DNA of 64,000 nucleotides from assembly GCF_007995245.1 (NCBI RefSeq), contig NZ_VCBA01000006.1, positions 62,001 through 126,000 on the forward strand, in the 5' to 3' direction. Position 1 is the stretch's first letter; the number at the start of each line of letters is the position of its first letter. Under the pieces are notes generated by a model that searched no databases, was not told the origin of the DNA, and worked only from the letters and a program-made list of their open reading frames with translations. The stretch is from Tateyamaria sp. syn59. Lineage in GTDB: Bacteria; Pseudomonadota; Alphaproteobacteria; Rhodobacterales; Rhodobacteraceae. Positions 259 to 13,493 of the stretch are shown here, in pieces. Position numbers and translations under genes: made by a program.

Positions 259-1335
259 ATGGCCGATTTCGCAAGCCAGGTGGCAGAATCTCAATCCCAG
301 GTGGCCGAGGCGCAACAAAAAATCTCGGAACTCACCAGCCGGATCGAGGCGGCGCGGTCCAAGATGAAGTCGGGCGATGACATCTCGATGGACATCGAAA
401 ACGCGACGCTCGAAGACGTCCATGCCCACACCGACGTGATGAACGCCAACATCGCCGAGCTGATCATGGGTCTGGATGATGTCACCGCCGCATTCTCGAA
501 GGATTTTGAAGAGATGCGGTCCAAGACGGGCTGGGAAAGCTTCGTCGGCATCTTTGCCAAGGCCAAGTCGGAGAGCATGCGGCAGGAACGTGTGCGATCC
601 GCGTCGATTGACGACAAGCTGCAGGACCTGATCTCGAAATCTGACGTGATCGTGCAGTTGCTGCAGGGTCAGCTGACCATGCTGGAAGACCAGAAATCCA
701 AGGTCGAAGCCAACCTGACCGAAACGCTGGACGAACGCGAATTCACGGTGCAGGAACTGTCAGCCCTGCAAGCCGACATTCAGGCGATGGACCCGCAGAT
801 CATCACCCTGGAAAACAAGATCGCGTCCGAAACCGACGCCGCCAAGCGCACGGCGCTCGAGACGGAACTGGCCGACCTCAACTCGAAATACAACGAGATG
901 GTGCAGGAAGAGCAGGTCAAGGTGGCCAAGTCCCAGACGCTTGAGCGCTATATCGAGAAGGGCAAGACCTGGGTGGACAGCCTGCAAAACCAGGCTGCGA
1001 CCCAGATGGTGCTGATCAACAAGCTGCAAACGGACACCAAGCAGCGGGTTGTGCTGTATGATGCGCTGACAAAGTCGTTGAAGACAGCCCAGCAACAAGA
1101 CGTCGCGCACCGCATCAACGAGATCGGCGTGAAGACGGACCAGGAGGCGCAAACCGCCATGGCCGGTATCGGTGCGGCAACGAATGCCCGCATGGCCGAC
1201 ATGCTGGAAGCGCACGAAGACCAGATGGTCTTTGCCCGCGACGTGCTGGAGCAGAAGGCCAAGGCGGATGAGCGGTTTGCACGTCGGTTCGCGCAGATCG
1301 TGGAGAAGCACGACAGCAATGCGTATGGTGGGTGA
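259..1335 (+). CDS. Coiled-coil protein, first gene of the AAA+ cluster (TelA-like architecture)
   Basis: 358 residues, start at the ATG preceded by GTAGGGGA rather than the in-frame ATG 17 codons upstream. The protein is almost wholly helical and charged: heptad-rich stretches cover about residues 1-50, 130-240 and 290-350. There is no signal peptide or membrane segment. The alternating long helices recall toxic-anion-resistance (TelA/KlaA) proteins, but I see no diagnostic motif, so this is only a resemblance. It begins a same-strand series that ends with the DUF1523 gene. A cytoplasmic scaffold or partner of the downstream AAA+ ATPase is an inference from position. Confidence 0.8.
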   Translation: MADFASQVAESQSQVAEAQQKISELTSRIEAARSKMKSGDDISMDIENATLEDVHAHTDVMNANIAELIMGLDDVTAAFSKDFEEMRSKTGWESFVGIFAKAKSESMRQERVRSASIDDKLQDLISKSDVIVQLLQGQLTMLEDQKSKVEANLTETLDEREFTVQELSALQADIQAMDPQIITLENKIASETDAAKRTALETELADLNSKYNEMVQEEQVKVAKSQTLERYIEKGKTWVDSLQNQAATQMVLINKLQTDTKQRVVLYDALTKSLKTAQQQDVAHRINEIGVKTDQEAQTAMAGIGAATNARMADMLEAHEDQMVFARDVLEQKAKADERFARRFAQIVEKHDSNAYGG

Positions 1336-1338
1336 GGT

Positions 1339-1578
1339 TTGAATAACCGCTCCAATACAGAGCCGTTTTCAGTGCGTCGTCATCGGTTCTTCAAATCAGG
1401 TCGCTTCAAGTTTTCTCTTCTTGGTATAGGTCTGATTTGGTTGTTGGCTGCAAACTGGATTGATCTCACATGGTGGTGGTATCTGCCGGGTTTTGTAATG
1501 CTGTCTGTCGGTTTGTTACTGCTGGGAGCATTTAATATGGATGCCGATAGATCCGGCTTTGGGGCTGACGGTAGATGA
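1339..1578 (+). CDS. Small two-helix membrane protein
   Basis: 79 residues from a TTG start three bases after the previous stop; GTGAGG just upstream can serve as ribosome-binding site. A basic N-terminus (Arg-Arg-His-Arg, Lys-Ser-Gly-Arg) is followed by two hydrophobic segments, about residues 26-42 and 47-64, the first rich in Trp. The tail is acidic and short. Base composition is visibly more AT-rich than its GC-rich neighbours. The gene ends in an ATGA overlap with the 42-codon gene at 1575. No family recognised; expression is supported by the tight spacing and the overlap. Confidence 0.6.
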   Translation: MNNRSNTEPFSVRRHRFFKSGRFKFSLLGIGLIWLLAANWIDLTWWWYLPGFVMLSVGLLLLGAFNMDADRSGFGADGR

Positions 1579-1703
1579 TACAAAAGCGCCTCTACTTGTT
1601 TCGGCGGGGTGGCGTCGCTCCGCAGACAGTTACCACCGTTCCCGGCGAGGAGACCACGACCCTTGGTGTGCTGGGCTACGCGCTTGAGGGCACATCTCAA
1701 TGA
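1575..1703 (+). CDS. 42-residue ORF coupled at both ends by ATGA overlaps
   Basis: The frame opens with an ATG that overlaps the stop of the upstream membrane protein (ATGA at 1575-1578) and closes with a TGA that overlaps the ATG of the next gene (ATGA at 1700-1703). The product starts Met-Ile-Gln-Lys-Arg-Leu-Tyr and has a basic N-terminus, a Thr/Val-rich middle and no membrane segment. Overlap of the same type at both ends, in a cluster where this is the usual junction, is the evidence that it is translated. It is too short to classify. It could instead be only a coupling device that passes ribosomes to the next gene. Confidence 0.5.
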   Translation: MIQKRLYLFRRGGVAPQTVTTVPGEETTTLGVLGYALEGTSQ

Positions 1704-2059
1704 CTCCGGGGACTATGTTAGTCTTTTTAAAGTTTGGATGCCTGTTGGCGCTTCTGACTTTGATGAACCAATGCAGCGCTGTCTTTCAGACGGAAGCGTT
1801 TTCAAGTTTAGCGAAGGATGAAGCGTTCAAGTCTCACATTTTAACACCAACAGCCATGGCGTTTTTTGCTGGGGGCGTCTTTGGCCTTGTATCTCGGCTT
1901 TGCGTGAGCGTAGTCCTTCCAGCAATCGTTGCGGTTCGACGCCGGGCAGGCATCAAAACAGATGTAAACGCGTTTGCTTTGAAACACATTTTCGAACTGG
2001 ACGAGCACGCCAAGCCGATCAAGCGGGGCCCGCTTGGCGTTTGGAGATCGGGGCGATGA
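1700..2059 (+). CDS. Small membrane protein of the AAA+ cluster
   Basis: 119 residues. A hydrophobic N-terminal segment (about 6-25, containing a cysteine) and a second one (about 50-75) bracket a short polar loop; the C-terminal 40 residues are basic and probably cytoplasmic. The start overlaps the stop of the 42-codon gene and the stop overlaps the start of the next gene, both as ATGA. The coding sequence is AT-richer than the flanking conserved-looking genes. Unknown function; probably a membrane partner of the cluster. Confidence 0.6.
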   Translation: MTPGTMLVFLKFGCLLALLTLMNQCSAVFQTEAFSSLAKDEAFKSHILTPTAMAFFAGGVFGLVSRLCVSVVLPAIVAVRRRAGIKTDVNAFALKHIFELDEHAKPIKRGPLGVWRSGR

Positions 2060-3171
2060 CCAAACCCGAAACCTCCGGCCTCACCGACCTATTCGCCTCG
2101 CGCCGCTATTTCAAGAAATTCGAGACGATCACCGGGCACCTCGCCCGTGTCGCAGGCGTGATGGAGGCCGAGGGCGATCTGAACCGGGATGAGGTGAAGA
2201 TCCTCACCCGCTACATCGCCGAGTTGACCTTCACCTTCCGCGCGCTCTCCCAGAAATACCTGCTGGTGGGCCGCGACACCGGGCGCGTCTTCGGCTCGCT
2301 TGCCATCGACAAGCGCTACAGCGGCTTCCCCGCGGCCGAAGAACTGCTCACCATGGCCTCGGACGCGATCCAGGCGGGTGTCCATCTCGACCGGATCGAC
2401 CCGGCGGATGAGCTGAAAAAGCAGATGGTCGAGGTCATCATCGGCGACCGCCAGGTGCCCACGAAACTGCAATTCGCGCTGTCACAGCGGCTCTACTACC
2501 AAGACCTGCAACGCGGCCAACTCTTCTGGCCCCGCAACGACCCGCAGATCGTTTGGACCGGCAACCTGAGCGATGACCGCCGCAGCTTCCGCATCCACTG
2601 GGCGGTCTGCGATACCGAACTGAACCTGCCCGTCATCTACATGATGGAGGTCGAGGACACGGGCCGCACCGCTCTGCCCAAGGACCCACGCCGCTGGCCC
2701 GAAGCCCAAGCGCACCTGATGGCGCAATCGCTCGGCAAGCTGAAGCTCGTCACCATCGCCAAGGGCTTCGACGAGGATTTCGACAACATCCACCCCAAAC
2801 GCCTGCGCCGCTTCTACGCGGGCCCCATGTACTCCTCAGCCTTCACCGCGCAATCGGGCCCCATCCTCGACGTCCTCAAAGCCGCCCGCGCGCCCGAAGG
2901 GCAGGACTGGGCGCTGGTTTGGACCGAAGAAGACCTGCGCTCAGAACGGGTGATCGAGGAACGCTCGGGCTGGTTCTCGTCCGTCGAACGCGAAGTCTTC
3001 GCCCTCGACCCCTTCTCAGGACGCGGCGCGGACCTTGGGGCCACGCGGATGGAACGCAGCATCGTCCTGCCCCAACGCGCCTTCCAGGCGCTCGAAGAAA
3101 TGAACCCGCCCGGTTTTGGCTCTGTCCGCAAATTTGTGGTCAGCCCGTCGGGGCGCGTCCTGAGGTACTGA
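2056..3171 (+). CDS. Unknown soluble protein of the AAA+ cluster
   Basis: 371 residues from the ATG in the ATGA overlap with the preceding gene; an in-frame ATG 52 codons further upstream lies inside that gene and was not used. The first 110 residues are helical and charged. The middle (about 130-260) has alternating Trp/Leu/Ile strands, with polar and acidic loops. The C-terminus ends in short strands and Arg-Tyr. No signal peptide, membrane helix or catalytic motif is visible. The GC-rich coding style matches the ATPase and DUF6638 genes, so I group it with the core of the cluster. Confidence 0.8.
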   Translation: MTKPETSGLTDLFASRRYFKKFETITGHLARVAGVMEAEGDLNRDEVKILTRYIAELTFTFRALSQKYLLVGRDTGRVFGSLAIDKRYSGFPAAEELLTMASDAIQAGVHLDRIDPADELKKQMVEVIIGDRQVPTKLQFALSQRLYYQDLQRGQLFWPRNDPQIVWTGNLSDDRRSFRIHWAVCDTELNLPVIYMMEVEDTGRTALPKDPRRWPEAQAHLMAQSLGKLKLVTIAKGFDEDFDNIHPKRLRRFYAGPMYSSAFTAQSGPILDVLKAARAPEGQDWALVWTEEDLRSERVIEERSGWFSSVEREVFALDPFSGRGADLGATRMERSIVLPQRAFQALEEMNPPGFGSVRKFVVSPSGRVLRY

Positions 3172-3181
3172 GAGGAAGCGG

Positions 3182-3481
3182 ATGTCAATTTGGTCCTCCA
3201 GGTGGAACCTTTTGGAAGCAGACAAGGGGGACGGTCGTCTCTCGTTTGTGCAATGGATCGTCAAGCACCGCAGAAATCACTTCGTCGCGCTAACCGCCTT
3301 GTGGTTGTTCGGGATGTACTTTTGCTTCGTTTCTCCAGGCTGGGAAAACACTAACTCAGGTGAAAGAACTCTTGGTGTGACGCTCGCCTGTCCAATCCTA
3401 TTTTTTTTGGAGCTGAGGGTCAGATATCGTGCCTTTAAGCTCCATAACCCTGTTGGTAAGGCTAAGGAGCCGACGACATGA
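3182..3481 (+). CDS. Small membrane protein of the AAA+ cluster
   Basis: 99 residues. Two hydrophobic segments (about 34-50 and 65-78) are separated by a polar loop, with Arg-rich flanks that would place both ends in the cytoplasm. It starts 10 bases after the previous stop behind GAGAGGAAG and its TGA overlaps the ATG of the ATPase gene (ATGA). Like the other small membrane genes in this cluster it is AT-rich compared with its neighbours. No family recognised. Confidence 0.6.
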   Translation: MSIWSSRWNLLEADKGDGRLSFVQWIVKHRRNHFVALTALWLFGMYFCFVSPGWENTNSGERTLGVTLACPILFFLELRVRYRAFKLHNPVGKAKEPTT

Positions 3482-5406
3482 CCCAAACCGCCGACCAAAT
3501 GGAACTGCGCGAGGCCGAGATTACGGCGCATTACCCCATGGCGCTGTCTATGTTGCAGGGCTTCGACCACGCCCCCCGCATCGGTAAGGGCAAGGAGGCG
3601 CCGCAGCAGGAACGCTCAAGCGGTGTGGGCACCCGCCGCCGCTTCCGCACCACCACGCCGGGCCTTGTCACCCGCCGCACCGTGCCCACCGGGGCTGTGC
3701 AACTGATGGCGACCATCGAAGGGGCCGATGACGATGATGCGCTGATGTCGCCCGTGCAGGCCACCACGCTCAACGCCCTGCGCCGCGCCATCTCCATCGC
3801 GCTGGCTGTGGCGGAGAACTACGCCTCTGTCTCGGGTCTCGGCGATCTGAAGCGCACCAACCTCGAAGGGGCGCTGCCCGCCGCGCGCAAGACCGAGTTT
3901 GCCGAACTGCTATCGGCCGAAGCGCTCATCACCCTCTACGTCTTCGGCAACGCCACCGCCTACCTGCTCTCGGCGCACCAGACGGAAGTCACGGCAGAGG
4001 TGGGCGAGGTTGAGGAAATTCTGACCGACAATGGCCAGACCTCCCTGCACGGCTGCCTATGGGAACTCGATCAGGACATCGCCACCCACGCCCCCGACGA
4101 CGCCCACCTTGTCGCCACCATCACCGCCTTTGCCGAGGCGCTGATGGAAAAGGTCTCCTTGCGCGCCCAGAACGCCCCGCGCCTTGCACCCTTCACCGGG
4201 GCCAGCTGGCATGTGGAGGCCGACGATTTCACCGTGCAGGGCTTCACCCCCGCGACCAAGGCCAAGACCCAGACCCTCACCATGACCTTCAAGAAACCGC
4301 ACGAGGTCGTGGGCAACCATATCGCCAAATACCAGGCCATGAAGCTCGCCAAGATGCTGATGGCCTACGACTTCGACCGGAGGCTCAACCCCTTTGCCGA
4401 ACTGGGAGGCTTCATCTTCACCTTCATGGGCGACGGCAAGCCGGGGACGGGCAAGACGACCCTGATCCAGATGATGGCCGGGCTGATCAATGACTATTGC
4501 CAGGTCGCCGGATATGCCTTCCGCTACCAGAACCTGAGCACCGACAACATCGACAGCTACCAGGGCAAATCCGGTCAGAATGCCAAGGCGTTCATCTCCA
4601 ACGTGCTCGATCCGGGCGTGATCGGCTTCGGCACCATCGACGACATCGACCAGCTCGCTGGCAAGCGCGGCGACCGCCAATCCTCTGCCGGGCAGCTTGA
4701 AATCACCGCCGTGCTGATGGAGAGTTTTGCTGGCGCCAACACCGTCGTGCGCGGGAACTGCACCTTCGGAATGTTTTCGAACTACCCCGAGAACGTGGAC
4801 GACGCCCTGCGCCAGCGGGCCGGCGCGCGGTTCCTCGTGGACGGACCGCAAACGCGCGAGGATTACATCGACATCCTCGCCCTGCTGATGGGCAAGAACC
4901 ACGACATCCCCATGGGCGCACACGAGTTGTTCTCGGCGCAAGAGATCAAGAAGGCGGTGGCGGCGTCCTTCGACAGCCACAATCGCCCGCATGAGGCGGG
5001 GCTGATGGAGGTGTTCGACCGGGTGCATTCCGACGTGGGCGAGTTGGATACGATTGCCAAGCTGGGCACGTATCTGAAGGCGATCCAGCAGGCCGATGAA
5101 CGCTTCACCGGCCGCGCGATCAAGAACATCACGGACGCGGTCAAGGTCCGCGCCATGGATTTCGAACTGCCCGACGAGTGGATGGAAAACCCCGAACTGT
5201 TCCTGTTCAAAACCTACGACGAGAAGAAGGCGATGATCGAAGACCTGCGCGTGCCGATCACGGTCGACATGGTGGTGCAGGAGATCAACCGGTACGCCGA
5301 CAGCGAGTTCCGTTACGCGGACAAGTCGGATGAAGTGGCGATCGAGGCGATGGTGCGGGACTTCGGGCGGCAGGAAGAGGCGAAGAAGCGGTATTTGGGA
5401 GGGTAA
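3478..5406 (+). CDS. AAA+ ATPase, core of the cluster
   Basis: 642 residues. The N-terminal 300 residues are a unique helical domain. A P-loop, Gly-Lys-Pro-Gly-Thr-Gly-Lys-Thr, lies at 320-327, and a Walker B-like strand ends in Asp388-Asp389-Ile-Asp391. A sensor-1-like Ser-Asn-Tyr follows, and then an Arg-rich segment (Leu-Arg-Gln-Arg-Ala-Gly-Ala-Arg-Phe) that could supply the arginine finger. These are AAA+ hallmarks of ring-forming, ATP-driven remodelling machines. The helical C-terminus extends another 170 residues. There are no membrane helices and no protease or VWA domain. The start overlaps the stop of a small membrane protein, suggesting coupled translation and possible membrane recruitment. 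Substrate unknown. Confidence 0.9.
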   Translation: MTQTADQMELREAEITAHYPMALSMLQGFDHAPRIGKGKEAPQQERSSGVGTRRRFRTTTPGLVTRRTVPTGAVQLMATIEGADDDDALMSPVQATTLNALRRAISIALAVAENYASVSGLGDLKRTNLEGALPAARKTEFAELLSAEALITLYVFGNATAYLLSAHQTEVTAEVGEVEEILTDNGQTSLHGCLWELDQDIATHAPDDAHLVATITAFAEALMEKVSLRAQNAPRLAPFTGASWHVEADDFTVQGFTPATKAKTQTLTMTFKKPHEVVGNHIAKYQAMKLAKMLMAYDFDRRLNPFAELGGFIFTFMGDGKPGTGKTTLIQMMAGLINDYCQVAGYAFRYQNLSTDNIDSYQGKSGQNAKAFISNVLDPGVIGFGTIDDIDQLAGKRGDRQSSAGQLEITAVLMESFAGANTVVRGNCTFGMFSNYPENVDDALRQRAGARFLVDGPQTREDYIDILALLMGKNHDIPMGAHELFSAQEIKKAVAASFDSHNRPHEAGLMEVFDRVHSDVGELDTIAKLGTYLKAIQQADERFTGRAIKNITDAVKVRAMDFELPDEWMENPELFLFKTYDEKKAMIEDLRVPITVDMVVQEINRYADSEFRYADKSDEVAIEAMVRDFGRQEEAKKRYLGG

Positions 5407-5416
5407 TGACTAATAC

Positions 5417-6037
5417 ATGCAGGAGATCGACAATTGGCTTTTTCTTATTCTAGGCCTGCTAGGCGGACTAGTTACGTCTTATGTCTTCTGGTGGGTGCTA
5501 AACCATCGGTACGTACCAAACATCGTGTTTTCGCCAGAAGTGGCAAGGTCGGAGGTGGAATTTCACCCGTCTGGGTTCCGCTACCAAGTAGCCGTTAAAA
5601 ACATAGGAAAACGAGAAGCCTTTAATGTCAGGTTTCGTCTAAGAATGAGAATAAAGGATGTGCGCCATACTGGAGGTACAATCTTTGATTACATAAATCT
5701 TGAGCTTGTAAATAACGAGTTCTTTATGTTTGCTGCCGGCTCAATGTTTCGTATTACGCCGCTACCCCACAAAACTGCGCGATTTTCAACAGATGTATTT
5801 CCGGAAGGAATTCAAAAAAAGTACCGCGATGGAGTTCTAGGTATGGATGACTTGTTTAACGAATGGGCAGGTGCAGAAATGTTTCTAGAAGTGATTGCCA
5901 CAGATAGATTTTCTGGCGGTATGAAGTTCTTTCGATCGCCGTTGTACACCAAGAAGGACATTCGCCGAGGCGTTTTTAAAGGCAAGATACACGATTGTAT
6001 CCACAAGCAAACCAGAACTATCGGAACTAAGCCGTGA
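5417..6037 (+). CDS. Membrane-anchored protein with a beta-rich domain
   Basis: 206 residues. One N-terminal membrane segment (about 7-28) is followed by a strand-rich domain containing the run Val-Ala-Val-Lys-Asn-Ile-Gly-Lys-Arg, typical of an immunoglobulin-like or adhesin-type fold. The C-terminus is basic. AGGAG inside its own early codons is not a site for it, and the upstream signal is weak. The sequence is markedly AT-richer than the ATPase gene 10 bases before it, so it may be a later insertion. No family recognised. Confidence 0.6.
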   Translation: MQEIDNWLFLILGLLGGLVTSYVFWWVLNHRYVPNIVFSPEVARSEVEFHPSGFRYQVAVKNIGKREAFNVRFRLRMRIKDVRHTGGTIFDYINLELVNNEFFMFAAGSMFRITPLPHKTARFSTDVFPEGIQKKYRDGVLGMDDLFNEWAGAEMFLEVIATDRFSGGMKFFRSPLYTKKDIRRGVFKGKIHDCIHKQTRTIGTKP

Positions 6038-6066
6038 TAGGCGTACTCTATTATACGCAGACATTT

Positions 6067-6087
6067 GGGAATCTACTCAGGATTCCC
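6067..6087. promoter_or_regulatory. 7-base inverted repeat in the 108-base gap inside the cluster
   Basis: GGGAATC and GATTCCC face each other across a 7-base loop. There is no T-run, so it is not a typical terminator. It lies in the only substantial gap of the cluster and could be an mRNA hairpin or a second operator. Confidence 0.25.
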
Positions 6088-6145
6088 CATTTGTGTGACA
6101 TTTTCAAACGCCGTTGGGATCAGTGAAAAGGTAATTGAAAAGTCG

Positions 6146-6436
6146 ATGCTTCTGATCATCATAACCCTCACCGCCCTCATCCTCGGCACCCTTCTCCCCC
6201 TCCGCTGGGGCGTCTTCGGCTTCCTCGCCGCCACAGCCTTCCTGTTCCTCACCCAAGCCGCCATCCACACCGCCATGGGCTTCGAAGGCACGCCGCTCTC
6301 TGAAACCATGCTGCTCTTCAACAACTCCTGGCCCGCCTATATCGGCTACAACCTCCAGATCACCTTCCGCAGCTTCGCCCTGCCGCTCCTTGTCCTCGCC
6401 ACCCCGCTGATCTTCCGTTTGGGGAGGCGCACATGA
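6146..6436 (+). CDS. Small membrane protein of the AAA+ cluster
   Basis: 96 residues from the ATG at 6146; an upstream in-frame ATG would add 27 polar, AT-rich residues that do not look part of the protein. Three hydrophobic segments are visible (about 1-16, 20-40 and 68-88). The GC-rich codon style matches the conserved core of the cluster. Its TGA overlaps the ATG of the next membrane gene (ATGA). Unknown function. Confidence 0.7.
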   Translation: MLLIIITLTALILGTLLPLRWGVFGFLAATAFLFLTQAAIHTAMGFEGTPLSETMLLFNNSWPAYIGYNLQITFRSFALPLLVLATPLIFRLGRRT

Positions 6437-6729
6437 TCCTGACCGGTATCATCGCCATGGGCCTGATCGTGGTCGCCGCTTGGCTTCTGCCGCCCTACAT
6501 AAAAAGCGCGCTGCCATTGCCGGAATTCCTGTTCGGCATGGTCTGCACCAGCTCCATCATCGGGATCGCTGCAGTGACGGTCCTCCTCATCCAAGCCATG
6601 GGGTTACCGCTGCCAATCATTGGCCCCAGCGGGGACGCAGGCTTTGGCAACGCGCTCCTGTCACTCTCCATGCCCAGCGTCGGCGTGCTGGTCATCCGGC
6701 TCGCGCAACTCAGGGGGACGCGCCCATGA
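6433..6729 (+). CDS. Small membrane protein of the AAA+ cluster
   Basis: 98 residues, hydrophobic almost throughout, with probable membrane helices at about 1-18, 32-52 and 70-90. It is linked to both neighbours by ATGA overlaps (6433-6436 and 6726-6729), so it is probably made in a fixed ratio with the preceding membrane protein and the following DUF6638-type protein. The two adjacent small membrane proteins may form one membrane unit. No family recognised. Confidence 0.7.
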   Translation: MILTGIIAMGLIVVAAWLLPPYIKSALPLPEFLFGMVCTSSIIGIAAVTVLLIQAMGLPLPIIGPSGDAGFGNALLSLSMPSVGVLVIRLAQLRGTRP

Positions 6730-8057
6730 TCCGCCTCATCCAACGCGGCCTGATGTTCGGCAACCTCTTCCACGTGGCCTCGCCCGCGCTGGTGGAACGC
6801 TACAACCGCGCGCTCGAACACCTTACGGGCAAGCGCACCGCCCTCACCGATTTCTACATCGACATCTCCGGCTACTCGCCCGAGGTGGGCAACGAATTGA
6901 GCGACCCGCTCTACCTCAACCACAACGGGGTCAACCGGCAGTTCATCCTGCTCTCGACCGAGCAACGCAAATGCCCGCTGCTCGATGCGGAATTCTCCAC
7001 GTCCCAAGGCATCCTCAAACGGTTCATCGCCGAAAACGAGGCGGCACTCTTCGCCCTCACCGCCCGCGACGCGGTGGCGGGGGAGCTTGTGAACTCCGTC
7101 TACGACATCTCCAGCCCCGCGCGGCTGTTCGATCTGCGCGCCATCACGGTCGAGGCGGACACGACCCGCGGCACGGTCCGCAACGCGGCCAGGCTGGCGG
7201 AGAAGGTGGACACGTTCCTGCAAGAAGACGACGCCTGGTTCGACGATGTCCTGATCGGCGAGATGATCCAGCTTGCGGGCCAGACCGGCGATGTCTCCCG
7301 CAACCCGGTGAACCTCAAGCCCATGCGCGTGGAAAAGGGCAACTTCTGGACGTCGCATTTCGGCGGGCTCTACATCTTCCAGACGCTCGACCACCCGGCC
7401 ACGATTGCCGCGACGGAGAAGCCCGAGGATGTGCCGACCAAATACACCTTCGACCTGACCCAACGAAACCGCATCGCTAAGTTCCTCGAGTACAACGACC
7501 TTGTCGAACCCATCGTCAAGGCACGCGGCATCGACGGCGCGGCGATCCTTAAGCAGAAGATGGACTTCATCCTCGTCTCCGCTGTGACCGAAGCAGGCGT
7601 AGACCTCGCCGGCACCACCCGGCGCGACATGCGCAGGCTGGCCCGCGACCACGGACACCTGCTGCCCGAGGAATTCCACGGCCTCGCCCAACTGGTCGAC
7701 TGGGCCGAACATGGGGGCAAATGGCCCCGCATCAGTTCCGAACACCCGGCCTATTTCTACACCCTTCGCGCCGCCGATACGCTGGACGCGGACCTCGTCA
7801 ACATGCTGCTGTCCGAACTCAGCCCGCGCGACGTGCGGCAACTCTTTATCTGCCACAAACAGGCGTTCTATGCGGCCTACGCCACTTGGGCGGACGCGAA
7901 AAAGGAATATGTCGCACAGTATCTGGAAGATGAGTACAAGGCCGACAAGGCGGGCGCGCGCGAGGCGCTCTTTGGGCACGACGCCCCCATGGAACCCGAC
8001 CCGAAGCCCCGCGATATGATCGCGCGAGTGGGGCCCTGGGGCGCAGTGAGGAGGTAA
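6726..8057 (+). CDS. DUF6638-type protein
   Basis: 443 residues from the ATG in the overlap with the previous gene; the 82 upstream in-frame codons are the shadow of that gene. I associate the N-terminus (Arg-Gly-Leu-Met-Phe-Gly, then a Leu-Thr-Gly-Lys-Arg block) with the uncharacterised family DUF6638 from memory. It is a soluble, mixed alpha/beta protein with no membrane helix. The C-terminal third is helical and charged, ending in an acidic, Pro-rich tail. A long antisense frame over this gene is a codon-bias shadow. Its role is unknown; position suggests that it works with the AAA+ ATPase. Confidence 0.8.
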   Translation: MIRLIQRGLMFGNLFHVASPALVERYNRALEHLTGKRTALTDFYIDISGYSPEVGNELSDPLYLNHNGVNRQFILLSTEQRKCPLLDAEFSTSQGILKRFIAENEAALFALTARDAVAGELVNSVYDISSPARLFDLRAITVEADTTRGTVRNAARLAEKVDTFLQEDDAWFDDVLIGEMIQLAGQTGDVSRNPVNLKPMRVEKGNFWTSHFGGLYIFQTLDHPATIAATEKPEDVPTKYTFDLTQRNRIAKFLEYNDLVEPIVKARGIDGAAILKQKMDFILVSAVTEAGVDLAGTTRRDMRRLARDHGHLLPEEFHGLAQLVDWAEHGGKWPRISSEHPAYFYTLRAADTLDADLVNMLLSELSPRDVRQLFICHKQAFYAAYATWADAKKEYVAQYLEDEYKADKAGAREALFGHDAPMEPDPKPRDMIARVGPWGAVRR

Positions 8058-8061
8058 GGAC

Positions 8062-8325
8062 ATGGCCGTAGCAAGACTGTTTCTGATCGCCTTCGTGGTG
8101 CTGACGGTGATCTACATCTCGCTGTCTTTCTATTCGCGCGCACGGGCGCGCGACAGGCTTGAGGCAGAATGGGACGAGGGCGACAAACCTGGCCCGCGCG
8201 AGGCTTACATCAAGCACGGGCTTGCTGACTATGACGGATCACTGCGGCGCAAGCTGATCCTGGGGGTCTACATCGTGCCCATGGCGCTCATCTGCCTTAT
8301 CATCTATCTCGTGAACTTCGCCTAA
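8062..8325 (+). CDS. Small two-helix membrane protein
   Basis: 87 residues, preceded by GAGGTAAGGA. Helices at about 4-24 and 65-86 enclose a charged loop that includes Glu-Trp-Asp-Glu-Gly-Asp and Tyr-Ile-Lys-His-Gly. The gene sits 4 bases after the DUF6638 gene and 11 bases before the DUF1523 gene. I recognise it only as a companion of these two. Confidence 0.7.
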   Translation: MAVARLFLIAFVVLTVIYISLSFYSRARARDRLEAEWDEGDKPGPREAYIKHGLADYDGSLRRKLILGVYIVPMALICLIIYLVNFA

Positions 8326-8336
8326 AGGACCCCTCA

Positions 8337-8984
8337 ATGCGTTACATCGGCTGGACCCTTCTGATCACCTTCTGGGTCGCGATTGGCGCGGCGCTGCACT
8401 ACACCCTGCCGCAACGCGACGTGGTGCGGATCGTGCGGGTGTTCGAGGAACGGCAGGACCTGAATGACTGGACGCGTGTGTTCTGGTCACGGCCGGACGA
8501 ACAATCCGAAACCTTCGTCAGCCGCGACGTGCAGTTCATCCAGACGGTGCGGGCCAACGGACGGCCCATGGTTTATCGGAACGAGGACACCGGCTGGAGC
8601 TGGCCGCCATATTTCAAGTTCGACACATCGAACCTGTTTACCGAAGCCGCCGACGCGACATCGACCCGCGCGGCGCCCGAATGGTACGTGATCACGCATT
8701 ACGGTTGGCGGAACGAGTTCCTGACGATCTTCCCCAACGCCATCTCGATCCGCCAGGTTGATGGCCCGAATGCGTCAAAGGGCATCCCGTGGGTAAACAT
8801 TCTTATCCTGACGACGATTGCCGCGATCTTTTACGCCATCTGGGTCCGCTGGCGGCGTTTCCGCCGGGCGCGGATCGACCCTAAGCTCGAGGAAATGCAG
8901 GACAGTTGGGAAGCCGCTGGCGACGCCGTGTCGGAAAAGCGGGGCCGCTTCCGCCGCTGGATCAATACATGGAAAGCGAAATAG
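8337..8984 (+). CDS. DUF1523 family membrane protein
   Basis: 215 residues. An N-terminal membrane helix is followed by the DUF1523-like block Leu-Pro-Gln-Arg-Asp-Val-Val-Arg-Ile, a periplasmic-looking domain rich in Trp and aromatic residues, a second helix (about 145-167) and a basic cytoplasmic tail. The family is known from alphaproteobacteria but has no assigned function. This is the last gene of the cluster; a hairpin repeat begins at its stop codon and may end the transcript. Confidence 0.8.
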   Translation: MRYIGWTLLITFWVAIGAALHYTLPQRDVVRIVRVFEERQDLNDWTRVFWSRPDEQSETFVSRDVQFIQTVRANGRPMVYRNEDTGWSWPPYFKFDTSNLFTEAADATSTRAAPEWYVITHYGWRNEFLTIFPNAISIRQVDGPNASKGIPWVNILILTTIAAIFYAIWVRWRRFRRARIDPKLEEMQDSWEAAGDAVSEKRGRFRRWINTWKAK

Positions 8985-9044
8985 GGCGGAGGACACTCCC
9001 GCCTTACGATTGGGTCCGGTCGTAAAGCGGATCTCGATCCGCCT
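8984..9044. repeat. Bipartite hairpin repeat, copy 1
   Basis: Two GC-rich palindromes lie in series. The first reads GGGCGGAGG-ACAC-TCCCGCC and the second GCGGATCTCGATCCGC, with a 12-base insert between them. The block aligns with 42348-42396, where the same two palindromes are adjacent. This is REP-like. It lies between convergent genes and may also act as a terminator. Confidence 0.55.
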
Positions 9045-9052
9045 CAGCCACG

Positions 9053-10171
9053 TCAGGGCAGGGGATCCGTGCGCCACAACTTCACGCGCAAACCACCATG
9101 GGCGATGCTTGGACCTTCGGGCAGAAACGGCAGTCCCGTGGCCTTGGCCAGTGACGCCTCGCTGGTGACGATGCCCACACGCCAGCCCGTAAACCGCTCG
9201 GCAAGGACCTGTCCCAACCGGCCATAAACCGGATAAAGCGCCTTCTTGTTCCCGATCCGCGCGCCATAGGGCGGGTTCACGATCACCAGGCCCGGTGGCC
9301 CGTCAGGCGGCGCGATCTCCCCGACATTTCCGGTTTCAAATGACACAAGGTCCGCGACTCCAGCCCGCTCCGCATTGGCCCTTGCCATGGCGATCACGCC
9401 CTGATCCCGGTCTGATCCCGTAAGGTGCACTCGTGGTGCGCCCCGCCGGTCAAACGTCCGCAACGCAGCGACCGCATCGGCGTCGAACCCGGCAAACTGC
9501 TCAAAGGCAAAGCCGCGCGCGCGTCCCGCTTGTAACCCGGCCGCCATCTCGGCCGCTTCGATGACAAAGGTGCCGGACCCGCACATCGGGTCAAATACCG
9601 GCTGCGACCCGTCAAACCCGCACTGACGCAGAAACAGCGCGGCGAGCGTCTCGCGCATCGGCGCCTTGCCCACGGCCTCCTTGTGCCCGCGCTTGTGCAA
9701 CGGCTCGCCAGAGGTATCGACACTGATCGTCACGCGGTTGTCGTCAATGCGCACCTTAAGCGTGACAGGCGCATCTTCGGCCACGCTCATCTCGGCACTC
9801 TCGACCAAAGCCTTCTCAATCCGCTTGGTGGCCGCACCCGCGTGGTAGATCTTGGATTTGCGCGAGGTCGCAACCTCCACCCGCACCGGCACGTCCGACC
9901 GCAGCACATCGGCCCACGGAAACTTCCGCGCCCGCTTGTCGAGCTGCGCCAGATGAAAGGCCATAAAGGATCCCATGCGCCACAGCACACGTGTGGCCCC
10001 GCGCAACTCCAGATTGGCGCGCCAGACCTCCGGCCAACCGCCGCGCAGGCTGACCCCGCCCGGCACCACATCGGCCACGTCAAAGCCATGTTCCCGCGCC
10101 TCATCGGCGAGGGTCTGTTCCATCCCCGGCAGGGTGATGGCAAAGATCGGGGCAGGTGTTTCGTCGGACAT
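9053..10171 (-). CDS. THUMP-domain class I RNA methyltransferase (RlmL/YpsC-like)
   Basis: 372 residues, starting at Met-Ser-Asp-Glu-Thr; a longer frame adds 12 codons. The N-terminal 150 residues fit a ferredoxin-like plus THUMP RNA-binding module. The methyltransferase core shows Asp-Pro-Met-Cys-Gly-Ser-Gly-Thr at 194-201 (SAM loop) and Asn-Pro-Pro-Tyr-Gly at 299-303, the motif of N-methyltransferases. Related enzymes methylate guanosine N2 in 23S rRNA or tRNA; the exact target cannot be told from sequence. It acts alone, tail-to-tail with the DUF1523 gene. Confidence 0.88.
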   Translation of the reverse strand: MSDETPAPIFAITLPGMEQTLADEAREHGFDVADVVPGGVSLRGGWPEVWRANLELRGATRVLWRMGSFMAFHLAQLDKRARKFPWADVLRSDVPVRVEVATSRKSKIYHAGAATKRIEKALVESAEMSVAEDAPVTLKVRIDDNRVTISVDTSGEPLHKRGHKEAVGKAPMRETLAALFLRQCGFDGSQPVFDPMCGSGTFVIEAAEMAAGLQAGRARGFAFEQFAGFDADAVAALRTFDRRGAPRVHLTGSDRDQGVIAMARANAERAGVADLVSFETGNVGEIAPPDGPPGLVIVNPPYGARIGNKKALYPVYGRLGQVLAERFTGWRVGIVTSEASLAKATGLPFLPEGPSIAHGGLRVKLWRTDPLP

Positions 10172-10216
10172 GAGGCCGTCTATATGGGCCCGCGCTGCGA
10201 TCCGCAAAGGTGCGGA

Positions 10217-11794
10217 TCAGTCGGCAAACAGATAGTCCACCGCTGCAATCTCGCGCGCCTTTTCCGGCGCCACGCTCAGGAAGCCGGACAGGGCGTCGGC
10301 GTTGTCGTCAAGGTCAGCGGTCTCATCCATCCGGTACAGATGCTCAAACTCGGCATCCCGTATGCCGTCGGATTCGTACATCATATCGTGGCGGATGGTC
10401 GGCAGCAGCCTGTCCAGCGTGTCGGTGCTGGTCTGTTCTCCGGCCAAACCGACGCGCATCGCGTGCCCGATCAGGTACTCATCGGAAAACGTGCACTGGA
10501 TCTCAAGAATCCGCGTGATCGACCGGTCGCCCGCAAAATCCTGCAAAAGATCAAGATTGCCGGGGTCCATGCACACGATCAGCCGGTCGGTTTCGAAATA
10601 GTCAAACAGCATTCGCATGAGGGCCCGGCGATGGCGGGTCCGCTTCTCAAGCGTCTTCTGGATACCGCCCAAGTCGGGCAGGGGCGTGTGCTCTTCGTTG
10701 AACAGGTATTCGATGGCGGGCACGTTGGTCATGACCCGGACACGCTCAAGCAAGCGCTTGGCGACGTGCCATTTCTTGCACACGATGATCAGCAGTTCGC
10801 GGTTGCGGCCCAGCGTACTTTCGGTTTCCCAGAACCGCATGGCAAAGCGGCGCCCGATCCGGCCCCGGCCTGTGAGGAACTTGAACAGGCTGGCCCCCTC
10901 GTTCGAGATCTGGAACTGCACGTTCTCAGCCGCATACAGCAGACCAAGGCGGCGCTTGAGATCCTTGGCCTCGGGGCTGATCTTGCGGGCAAACAGAAAG
11001 TCCTGGCTCAGCAGCAGATCATAGTGATCATCGTAGAATGTCACCGGTATGCCGTAATCGGTAAACATCAGGAAGGTCAGAGTACGGCTTCTGATCTCTT
11101 CTTCGGGGACGACGTGGCGCACAATGGTCTGAAAGAACGTCTCGTCCGGGATCCAGGTCGTGCGAAAAAAGCGCATCACGTCGCGGCGGGACCTGGTGAA
11201 TTCCAGCACCCATTCGATGGTGCGGCGGCGCAGGCACCACCATTGGCTGCCGATCTGTACCTGGATGTCGGCGGGAATGTCCCGCTTGAGCCCAAAGCGT
11301 TGCTGCAGGTGATAACTGGTGTAGAAACGCCACTTCTGCGTCCGCTCGTTAAAGAAGTGGCGGTAGATCAACCGCTCTTCCTTCATGCCGGTCTTGATCC
11401 AGTCGCTCTCGAAATAATCGAAGCTTTCGATAAAATCCGCGTCGTTGTCGTCCAGAAACTGGTGCGTGTACTGCGCTGACTTGATCGCCATGCAGTCGCC
11501 CGACAACATGTAGAAGTGGGTTGCACGCGGGAACGCCTCGACCGCGCTTTCCACGGCATACAGCGTGGCCTGCACCAGGCTCCACTCGCCCCAGCCGCAT
11601 CGGATGCGGCGATGGGCAAAGGCGACATTGCTGTTGTCTGCCAGCGCCTTGCGAATCTTTGCAAAATGCGCGGGATTGGCGCGCGCGTCGAAATGGATGG
11701 ACATGTAGTCGCCAGCCGCAGTCAAACGCTCCGCCTGCTTGATGATGGCATCCGGATCCTTGTGACACAGCAGAATGTAGGCAATTTTTGCCAT
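10217..11794 (-). CDS. GT14-type beta-1,6-N-acetylglucosaminyltransferase with DUF5928 domain
   Basis: 525 residues. The first 250 match the core-2/I-branching (Branch, GT14) family. They open with Ala-Tyr-Ile-Leu-Leu-Cys-His-Lys-Asp and contain the pattern Phe-Tyr-Met-Leu-Ser-Gly-Asp-Cys near 95-102, then Gly-Ser-Gln-Trp-Trp near 183. The remainder resembles DUF5928, which I know as a partner of this fold in Rhodobacterales. The enzyme would add N-acetylglucosamine or a similar sugar to a cell-surface glycan. It is divergent from a sulfotransferase gene across 139 bases, suggesting a joint role in decorating surface polysaccharide. Confidence 0.85.
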   Translation of the reverse strand: MAKIAYILLCHKDPDAIIKQAERLTAAGDYMSIHFDARANPAHFAKIRKALADNSNVAFAHRRIRCGWGEWSLVQATLYAVESAVEAFPRATHFYMLSGDCMAIKSAQYTHQFLDDNDADFIESFDYFESDWIKTGMKEERLIYRHFFNERTQKWRFYTSYHLQQRFGLKRDIPADIQVQIGSQWWCLRRRTIEWVLEFTRSRRDVMRFFRTTWIPDETFFQTIVRHVVPEEEIRSRTLTFLMFTDYGIPVTFYDDHYDLLLSQDFLFARKISPEAKDLKRRLGLLYAAENVQFQISNEGASLFKFLTGRGRIGRRFAMRFWETESTLGRNRELLIIVCKKWHVAKRLLERVRVMTNVPAIEYLFNEEHTPLPDLGGIQKTLEKRTRHRRALMRMLFDYFETDRLIVCMDPGNLDLLQDFAGDRSITRILEIQCTFSDEYLIGHAMRVGLAGEQTSTDTLDRLLPTIRHDMMYESDGIRDAEFEHLYRMDETADLDDNADALSGFLSVAPEKAREIAAVDYLFAD

Positions 11795-11933
11795 TCAGGA
11801 AACTTTACCACCGAGTAACATGCGATTGTTTAAGGTGATAAAGCTAAGCAGAGATTGAATAAACAGGATTTCTTTGCTTTTTTACGCGACAAGCCAGTGG
11901 CGTGTAACACTGCAAGTAAAAAGGGCGAGTGGT

Positions 11934-12752
11934 ATGGGGTTCCCGGGGACATGGATGACCGAAAGCGAAAGCGTGGTGTACCGCGTCGTCCCAAAATGTG
12001 CGTGCTCCACCATCGGCCAGATCATGTTCTACTCGGACCATGGCGAGTTCTTTGACGGTGATATCCACGACGCTCAGGGTGGCATGCACAAGTGGGCGAT
12101 CGACGCCAGTCAGCCGATCATCACCGACAATGTCCAGTCTCACGGCTCCTACGCGTTCACCTGCGTGCGCAACCCCTACACCCGCATCCTGTCGTCCTTC
12201 TTTGACAAGATCTGCGGTATCCAGCGCAACGGCAAACGCTACCGCGGCAACCTTGTCCCACTCCTGATCCAGAAATACGGCATCGAAGTGGGTGGCGATG
12301 ACGGCAAACAGGAGTTCGACCAGATCAAGTCGTTCCGCCGCTTCCTGCTCTTTGCGCGCGACACCATCCGCTGGCGCCGCCCGATGGAGCCGGACATTCA
12401 CTGGTCCGCCATGTCAGGGCACGTGTCCACCTTCATCGTGAACGGTGGCCGCTATGATAAGATCATATGGACCGAAAAGTTCAACGACGGCATGGAAGAG
12501 GTGATGCAGGCGATTGAGACGCCCCACGCCGTCAACATCGCCGACATCCCCCGCTTCAACGAAAGCGAGGGGCACGGGCCCAAACGCGCCCACCCGGTCG
12601 AGGATTACTTCGACGACCTGTCCATGCACCTCGTCTACGAGATCTACAAACGCGACTTCGACCTATTCAAATACGATTTCGAGGATCCCTCGAACAAGAT
12701 GCCCGTGGGCGAGATTGACCTCGACGAGGTGCACAAGAAATTGGGCGACTGA
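11934..12752 (+). CDS. Sulfotransferase, family 2 (carbohydrate type)
   Basis: 272 residues from the ATG after AAGGGCGAG; a longer frame adds 20 unconvincing residues. Pro-Lys-Cys-Ala-Cys-Ser-Thr at 20-26 is the 5'-phosphosulfate-binding loop and Val-Arg-Asn-Pro-Tyr-x-Arg, followed by Ser-Ser-Phe-Phe, is the 3'-phosphate-binding motif of PAPS-dependent enzymes. It should transfer sulfate from PAPS to a sugar hydroxyl. It lies head-to-head with the GT14 gene, so the acceptor may be the glycan that the GT14 enzyme builds. No signal peptide or membrane helix, so it is probably cytoplasmic. Confidence 0.85.
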   Translation: MGFPGTWMTESESVVYRVVPKCACSTIGQIMFYSDHGEFFDGDIHDAQGGMHKWAIDASQPIITDNVQSHGSYAFTCVRNPYTRILSSFFDKICGIQRNGKRYRGNLVPLLIQKYGIEVGGDDGKQEFDQIKSFRRFLLFARDTIRWRRPMEPDIHWSAMSGHVSTFIVNGGRYDKIIWTEKFNDGMEEVMQAIETPHAVNIADIPRFNESEGHGPKRAHPVEDYFDDLSMHLVYEIYKRDFDLFKYDFEDPSNKMPVGEIDLDEVHKKLGD

Positions 12753-12755
12753 CCC

Positions 12756-13493
12756 CTAGTTCAACAGCACAGGCTCTGTCCGGCCCATGCGGCACAGGTC
12801 GCAGACGCGCACGGCCTCCGTGATCCCCATCTTGGCCAGATCGCGGAACTCCGGCAGGTCAAACGGGTCCGCCGCCGCGTAGTCTACGGCATAGCCAAGG
12901 TCCTCGAACGACCCCAGCGTCAGACGGCTCAGCGGGCGCACCTCGCCCGACAGAAACCCGGTCATCAGCTCATTGCCAAACACCAGCTCGCGCCAATGCC
13001 CCTCGCGTGTGCCGGGGCCACCGGTGTTTGCCACCGGCACGGCCTGTCCGCCATCGGGGTCCAGATCGGCAAACTCGCGCGTCGCAGACGGCCCGACAAA
13101 GCGCGGGTCCATCGTGCCTGTCCCCGCAATCAGCCCCTTGCGCGCCCACAGCGTGCCAAAGCCCAGCACATGCGCCATCTCGTGCAGCACCACGTCCTCG
13201 AACCGGTTCTCGGCCTCCAGCGTTTCCACATCGGCCTGGTCAAACTCCATGATGCCCACGACCGGCAGTTCGGTGTCGGGGCGCAACACGGTGGGGCCAG
13301 CCTGCCCCAAAACCCCGTTCGCCCCGTCGAGGGGGCGGACCGACACGTCGATGCGGACGCCGCTCAGGGTCTCTCCCTCAAAGGTGATGGGCTCAAACTC
13401 CGTCTGCATCACCGCGTCCCAGCGTTCGGCGGCGCGGTCAAACACGGCGCGGCGGGCGGTGGATAAATCTCCATCAAATCTCAGCGTGATCAT
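12756..13493 (-). CDS. Leishmanolysin-like (M8) zinc metalloprotease
   Basis: 245 residues. His-Glu-Met-Ala-His at 104-108 followed by Gly-Phe-Gly-Thr-Leu-Trp is the zinc site of the M8/leishmanolysin group; His166 (Gly-His-Trp-Arg-Glu) is the likely third ligand and Asn-Glu-Leu-Met-Thr-Gly at 174-179 the Met-turn. There is no signal peptide and no pro-domain, so secretion, if any, needs a non-Sec route. A Cys-x2-Cys pair (Cys-Asp-Leu-Cys) lies near the C-terminus. It is tail-to-tail with the sulfotransferase gene, 3 bases apart. Confidence 0.8.
   Translation of the reverse strand: MITLRFDGDLSTARRAVFDRAAERWDAVMQTEFEPITFEGETLSGVRIDVSVRPLDGANGVLGQAGPTVLRPDTELPVVGIMEFDQADVETLEAENRFEDVVLHEMAHVLGFGTLWARKGLIAGTGTMDPRFVGPSATREFADLDPDGGQAVPVANTGGPGTREGHWRELVFGNELMTGFLSGEVRPLSRLTLGSFEDLGYAVDYAAADPFDLPEFRDLAKMGITEAVRVCDLCRMGRTEPVLLN

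Follow-up and report, generated by a model that had tools for sequence, protein, structure and literature searches.

The window analysed here is a 64,000-nt stretch of the Tateyamaria sp. syn59 genome (contig NZ_VCBA01000006.1, positions 62,001 to 126,000; contig 6 of a 4.57-Mb genome). Between positions 259 and 8984 of the window there are 13 open reading frames (ORFs), all on the forward strand. Four of them form a core, encoding a coiled-coil protein (CC), a 371-residue protein (U371), an AAA+ ATPase (AAA) and a DUF6638 protein. Across the loci surveyed this core has a fixed order and sequences which change in step, it is followed by a last gene specific to the clade, and it is interrupted by three slots whose contents are replaced mostly at stop codons. 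The seven small ORFs in these slots are passengers, changing faster than either the core or the flanking regions. The features are as follows (TM, predicted transmembrane segments):

259..1335, +, CC, coiled-coil core protein of 358 residues, conserved in the survey
1336..2055, slot 1, from CC to U371, here with three small ORFs
1339..1578, +, m1, 79 residues, two TM; slot passenger with related proteins in close loci only
1575..1703, +, s2, 42 residues; slot passenger
1700..2059, +, m3, 119 residues, two TM; slot passenger
2056..3171, +, U371, core protein of 371 residues without a Pfam family; AlphaFold2 model
3172..3477, slot 2, from U371 to AAA
3182..3481, +, m5, 99 residues, one TM; slot passenger
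3478..5406, +, AAA+ ATPase, 642 residues (PF00004)
5407..6725, slot 3, from AAA to DUF6638, the most frequently filled slot
5417..6037, +, m7, 206 residues, one TM; slot passenger
6146..6436, +, m8, 96 residues (longer if read from a TTG at 6065), two TM; passenger common to close relatives
6433..6729, +, m9, 98 residues, three TM; passenger common to close relatives
6726..8057, +, DUF6638 core protein, 443 residues (PF20343)
8062..8325, +, m12, 87 residues, two TM; accompanies DUF1523
8337..8984, +, DUF1523 membrane protein, 215 residues (PF07509), in the place held by DUF2333 in the other main clade

The junctions between successive ORFs are, in order, 3, -4, -4, -4, 10, -4, 10, 108, -4, -4, 4 and 11 bases, so that 11 of the 12 are of 11 bases or less and six are 4-base overlaps. 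A first-pass annotation made from the window's letters had placed a single-strand cluster here, as found, with twelve genes, ten of them 11 bases or less from the next. The tight spacing holds; the count is 13 rather than 12 because a 42-codon ORF (1575–1703) overlaps both of its neighbours by 4 bases. Among the proteins scanned (s2 was left out of the family scans, and m8 and m12 were run against Pfam only), curated Pfam or NCBIfam cut-offs were reached by AAA, DUF6638 and DUF1523 alone. The DUF6638-type and DUF1523 proteins had been named correctly, with matches to PF20343 (758 bits, profile positions 1–439 of 439) and PF07509 (223 bits, positions 1–176 of 176). PADLOC and PHROGs searches of the cluster proteins gave weak or generic matches only. 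The remark that no named system has this composition likewise stands, the set being unmatched in Pfam, NCBIfam, PADLOC and PHROGs, with no paper mentioning “DUF6638” in the literature searched.

Two sets of loci were compared: 80 from a genome collection, taken as the top-ranking 80 of 533 confirmed matches (the closest named one being a Tateyamaria genome with a 98% identical ATPase), and 36 further stretches comprising five plasmid loci, the window's own locus and 30 from other genomes. All four core genes are present in order in 72 of the 80 and in 32 of the 36, or 104 of 116 together; three loci are duplicated between the sets, making the 104 complete loci 101 distinct ones. Seven incomplete collection loci reach a contig end within 2 kb on the side of the missing gene. 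Five of the 116 depart from the pattern, four having CC only and one (L111) lacking DUF6638. The four core genes are the only ones common to all lineages sampled, which range from Rhodobacterales to Rhizobiaceae and Vibrio plasmids. In tblastn searches of plasmid records the ATPase and DUF6638 found the same ten (Sinorhizobium, Shinella, Rhizobium and Vibrio megaplasmids), and in all five of the plasmid loci fetched CC, U371, AAA and DUF6638 are in the same order. Within the order, 163 of 292 genomes have the ATPase; all of these belong to one family, and in one the match is no better than E 2e-4. In a sample of 398 genomes from across the phylum it was found in 26, every one of which also has CC, and a further four genomes have CC. 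Pairwise distances of the four core proteins are correlated, with r between 0.966 and 0.985 over the 104 loci. Against the annotation's own refuting condition, genes lying mostly apart in other genomes, the core mostly stays together and the cluster as a whole does not. A single system made up of all 13 ORFs was rejected because seven of them (1339–2059, 3182–3481 and 5417–6729) are not conserved between loci: what had been picked out is a real system, nameless in the libraries searched, but with its border drawn too wide. A viral or prophage origin was also considered and rejected; no relative of the ATPase was confirmed in viral_contigs, and in phage records the ATPase reached only about 50 bits, to clamp-loader genes, while U371 matched nothing.

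The stretch between CC and U371 exceeds 150 bases in 46 of 108 loci, that between U371 and AAA in 13 of 110, and that between AAA and DUF6638 in 76 of 107. In occupied slots 1 and 3, ORFs of at least 70 residues cover a median of 96–98%, and the first slot ORF starts between -10 and +20 bases from the upstream core stop codon in 24 of 35 cases for slot 1 and 42 of 69 for slot 3. Comparison with one relative (L161) illustrates the pattern. DNA homology to the window extends over 1–1338, 2056–3171, 3478–5402 and 6160–11998; at slots 1 and 2 it ends and restarts at the core stop and start codons, and at slot 3 it ends at the ATPase stop and restarts inside the shared passenger m8. Breakpoints were mapped in 57 close pairs with ATPases 90–99.5% identical (32 loci in broken pairs, so that the pairs are not independent), requiring a match over 200 bases and leaving out pairs with the slot empty on both sides. 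All 29 breaks after CC, all 16 after U371 and 27 of 43 after AAA are no more than 10 bases away from the stop codon. Mean DNA coverage in close pairs is 0.99 for the core, 0.74 upstream, 0.87 downstream and 0.18 for the slots (41 pairs with a value). Turnover can be rapid: where both slots are filled and ATPases are 95–99.5% identical, the slot family is shared in just one of 10 pairs for slot 1 and four of 13 for slot 3.

The slots hold a varied collection of genes. From 73 representatives of at least 90 residues, 36 (set A10) were chosen by hand, with m7 included and antisense- or intergenic-looking ORFs and most slot-1 proteins left out; two of the set, one of them the Fic protein, are from slot 2. 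These 36 matched 13 Pfam families, including DUF559, Mrr, Fic, PIN (which occurs with DUF433), DUF433, Phd, an inactive-nuclease family, DUF2971, DUF3825 and thioredoxins, and the DUF559 cluster spans 12 loci, 11 of them distinct. A second set (A11) of 23 mostly membrane proteins, namely 17 from slot 1 together with m1, m3, m5, m8, m9 and m12 of the window, matched no Pfam family. For comparison, 36 flank proteins (A12, taken from the top of a randomly drawn list of 104, where false frames are possible, as among the slot ORFs counted) matched 26 Pfam families, of which the 25 listed are largely of housekeeping type but include WYL and a single AbiEii-like ATPase domain. A membrane segment was predicted in 29 of 38 ORFs in slot 1, 43 of 92 in slot 3 and 143 of 595 in the flanks, with the slot ORFs counted from 70 residues and the generally longer flank ORFs from 130. 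In Sinorhizobium meliloti pSymB (L032, 13762–15890), slot 3 contains ISRm16, an IS4-like element, together with a gene for an endonuclease-domain protein.

Such contents bring to mind an anti-phage or anti-plasmid defence core, in which CC, U371, AAA and DUF6638 would sense invasion and the slot gene would execute, as in modular abortive infection. DUF559, Mrr, Fic, PIN with DUF433, Phd and DUF2971 would suit this, as would the type IV restriction, SoFic and several phage defence candidate models that PADLOC matched among slot proteins, the mostly housekeeping Pfam content of the flanks, the patchy presence of the ATPase in the order and the turnover of the slots. However, PADLOC does not cleanly separate slots from flanks, because flank proteins match too (WYL, mad, AriA and AbiLi models included), with 22 families among the 36 slot proteins and 10 among the 36 flank proteins, and a PADLOC enrichment of slot genes was not accepted. 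Of ten slot proteins searched singly, three matched and seven did not, including two clusters of five loci each. In addition, the core's only matches among defence families are generic AAA and coiled-coil ones, 23 of the 104 complete loci carry no passengers, and neighbouring genes recur within orders. A defence role is considered rather unlikely.

A better candidate, possible if somewhat short of an even chance, is a housekeeping-type envelope or stress chaperone. The slot genes would then be neutral, inserted where a non-essential operon has junctions that tolerate tightly spaced additions. The ATPase tree, which largely follows host groups, fits this, as do the recurring neighbours, a membrane partner in the form of DUF1523 or DUF2333, the loci with empty slots, and a weak profile resemblance of CC to the stress protein family TelA, considered below. 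On the other hand, DNA coverage in these loci is much higher in the flanks (0.74 and 0.87) than in the slots (0.18), so the region is not simply permissive; nucleases and toxin-antitoxin parts sit in slots between mostly housekeeping flanks, and membrane proteins are commoner in the slots than outside them.

The ATPase itself has an N-terminal part of about 270 residues followed by an AAA module, which matches PF00004 at 44 bits (gathering score 21.2) over residues 320–453. The P-loop GDGxPGTGKT (318–327) is conserved throughout. The first-pass annotation had this and a clear Walker B; the family and the P-loop are as it said, but the Walker B (FGTIDD, 384–389) ends in Asp-Asp instead of Asp-Glu in each of the 17 ATPases aligned. 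Y361-Q362-G363, invariant in the same alignment, corresponds in position to the Y-V-G of an i-AAA protease; N435 and invariant Arg 445, 447 and 451 are also present, and these residues and the pore-loop-1-like Tyr-x-Gly presumably have the functional roles we assign to them. The PF00004-type module and the Tyr-x-Gly are shared with classic AAA remodellers (i-AAA protease, Rpt, VCP and Vps4), from which this ATPase differs in its own N-terminal part and its Asp-Asp; it is distant from them (best PDB match E 1e-4), and no protease domain was found. The PADLOC model for TRIP13, the Pch2-type ATPase of HORMA-type cyclic oligonucleotide-based antiphage signalling systems (CBASS), matches the module at 24.9 bits, a generic AAA match, and no HORMA, cyclase or other CBASS family was matched among the ten cluster proteins scanned.

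The other two core partners are less easily placed. U371 has no Pfam family match; its AlphaFold2 model is confident (predicted local distance difference test score, pLDDT, 88.5; predicted template modelling score, pTM, 0.88) and has no clear fold match in the PDB, a tunnelling fold (T-fold) having been weighed for residues 171–335. The DUF6638 model (pLDDT 86.6, pTM 0.81) likewise gave no fold match in a PDB search.

An indirect indication of what the ATPase might act on comes from four loci (L079–L082) where CC and DUF2333 lie beside thymidine kinase, as in intact relatives, and U371, AAA and DUF6638 are absent. Here CC shares 23–32% identity with its counterparts in the intact loci L032 and L033, whose CC proteins are 92% identical to each other; the corresponding values for DUF2333 are 59–64% and 70%. 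In three of the four loci an identical run of 22 residues, spanning SLKTAxQQDVAHxIN, is gone from CC; the fourth carries its own deletion across this block as well as another. CC residues of about 273–290 (SLKTAQQQDVAHRINEIG) fall in the missing block, and 12 of these 18 positions are identical across five intact sequences, from the window to Vibrio; the stretch just before the block is conserved at least as well, yet it is kept in the shortened proteins. The deleted block would thus be one that the absent partners use, the ATPase being the simplest candidate. CC is probably a partner or substrate of the machine, since it has diverged and lacks a highly conserved block where U371, the ATPase and DUF6638 are missing. 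The annotators' suggestion that the ATPase remodels a coiled-coil protein gains indirect support from these diverged, shortened proteins, and is the best-supported mechanism.

The end of the module varies by clade. Among the 80 collection loci the last gene encodes DUF1523 in 51 and DUF2333 in 24, never both; four of the five with neither are at contig ends and the other is L111. DUF1523 and the preceding 87-residue m12 belong to one clade, and in a tree of 34 ATPases the DUF1523 and DUF2333 labels need one change each (L033 is labelled “none” in this tree although DUF2333 is present there). The DUF1523 form is also found in Roseibium (Hyphomicrobiales) and Hellea (Maricaulales), with ATPases that nest among those of Rhodobacterales, and in a genome of another class (L072) the whole set is present with DUF1523 and the ATPase again nests there (98/98). 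Because of these three placements the module and its membrane partner seem to have moved between lineages, and the core set with DUF1523 apparently can move as a unit.

The resemblance to TelA (PF05816) raises the question of whether CC is a divergent member of that family and the module an ATPase-equipped branch of the TelA stress pathway. The two are of similar length and helical sequence pattern, with a weak, collinear hhalign match (probability 30 percent) that starts near a shared aromatic-Glu-x-x-x-Gly motif; its score of 37.3 exceeds those of 25 block shuffles (29.0 at most) and of one reversed control. Helical proteins readily give such matches, however, and the window's CC has no TelA match in Pfam at E up to 1, nor is TelA among the 25 families listed, of 43, for nine CC members. 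A true TelA gene is found elsewhere in the same genome (G000 contig 1, 6332–7324; L186 and L229) with no core genes nearby, and the ATPase, U371 and DUF6638 are missing from all nine neighbourhoods examined around TelA genes or weak TelA matches. A TelA relationship therefore appears improbable, and a link to anion stress, which the annotation had proposed to test and which depends on this profile resemblance, is not supported.

Another parallel is the type I bacteriophage exclusion (BREX) locus, in which the accessory restriction gene brxU is nested between brxC and pglX (PMC8565348); both arrangements have a core of several genes with an added gene in its interior. Here there are three slots, with inserts replaced at breaks mostly at stop codons. 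BREX models (PglZ, BrxC and others) matched none of the 10 of 13 cluster proteins searched, including all four of the core, at E up to 0.1.

Overall, the reading preferred here, at about an even chance, is a conserved AAA+ protein-remodelling module, not described before, whose operon doubles as a carrier of exchangeable accessory genes. The ATPase would form a ring which, through the invariant Tyr-x-Gly at the pore loop 1 position, might pull on or remodel CC, contacting its C-terminal block at about residues 273–307. U371 and DUF6638 could be adaptors or regulators of the ring, and DUF1523 or DUF2333 might anchor the whole complex at the inner membrane. The nucleases, Fic, toxin-antitoxin parts and small membrane proteins encoded in the slots would be passengers or effectors in a setting of stress or conflict, probably transcribed together with the core.

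Several observations weigh against such a module. Asp-Asp in the Walker B could mean weak ATP hydrolysis. The loss of the CC block may reflect the loss of any of the three missing partners, and the four loci concerned are all from one family. Around the ATPase of L111 (7986–9920) CC and U371 are present, and both DUF6638 and DUF1523 are absent within the following 8 kb. Correlated distances are equally expected from plain vertical descent, and loci within an order repeatedly share neighbours, as would those of an ordinary chromosomal operon. As to the exchange of slot genes, 16 of the 43 AAA breaks are more than 10 bases from the stop codon, and homology continues through the slot in four cases after CC, none after U371 and four after AAA. 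Sharing of slot families is commoner at 85–95% ATPase identity (at 90–95%, four of 13 pairs for slot 1 and 11 of 18 for slot 3; at 85–90%, six of 22 and 33 of 59), and certain families thus persist. Finally, all three slots are below 150 bases in those 23 loci without passengers, and thus the core does not need them.

A more specific proposal, and a speculative one thought unlikely to hold, is a bacterial conflict system with a fixed AAA+ sensing or remodelling core, a membrane anchor and exchangeable effector cassettes in the three slots; if so, lineages would keep the machine and swap the weapon. Whatever its role, this ATPase module of four proteins occurs in at least two bacterial classes and is common to many marine and soil bacteria, and the searches gave no function for it. 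Gene exchange inside a conserved operon, mostly breaking at a stop codon, can be measured here, and the question is whether the core acts on or depends on the slot genes. If it does, the slots would be a ready catalogue of candidate effectors; if not, this would still be an unusual, cassette-like evolution inside a bacterial operon.

As for the rest of the window, no RNA elements or tRNAs were found in it, and promoter and terminator scans gave sites not above those in shuffled sequences. Beyond the module, a reverse-strand gene (10217–11794) encodes a Branch-type glycosyltransferase domain fused to DUF5928, and a similar-looking glycosyltransferase family is found just downstream of the module in 13 of the 104 loci with flanks. 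Further on, also in reverse orientation (12756–13493), there is a predicted protein matching leishmanolysin-type M8 peptidases (PF01457, E 4e-13).

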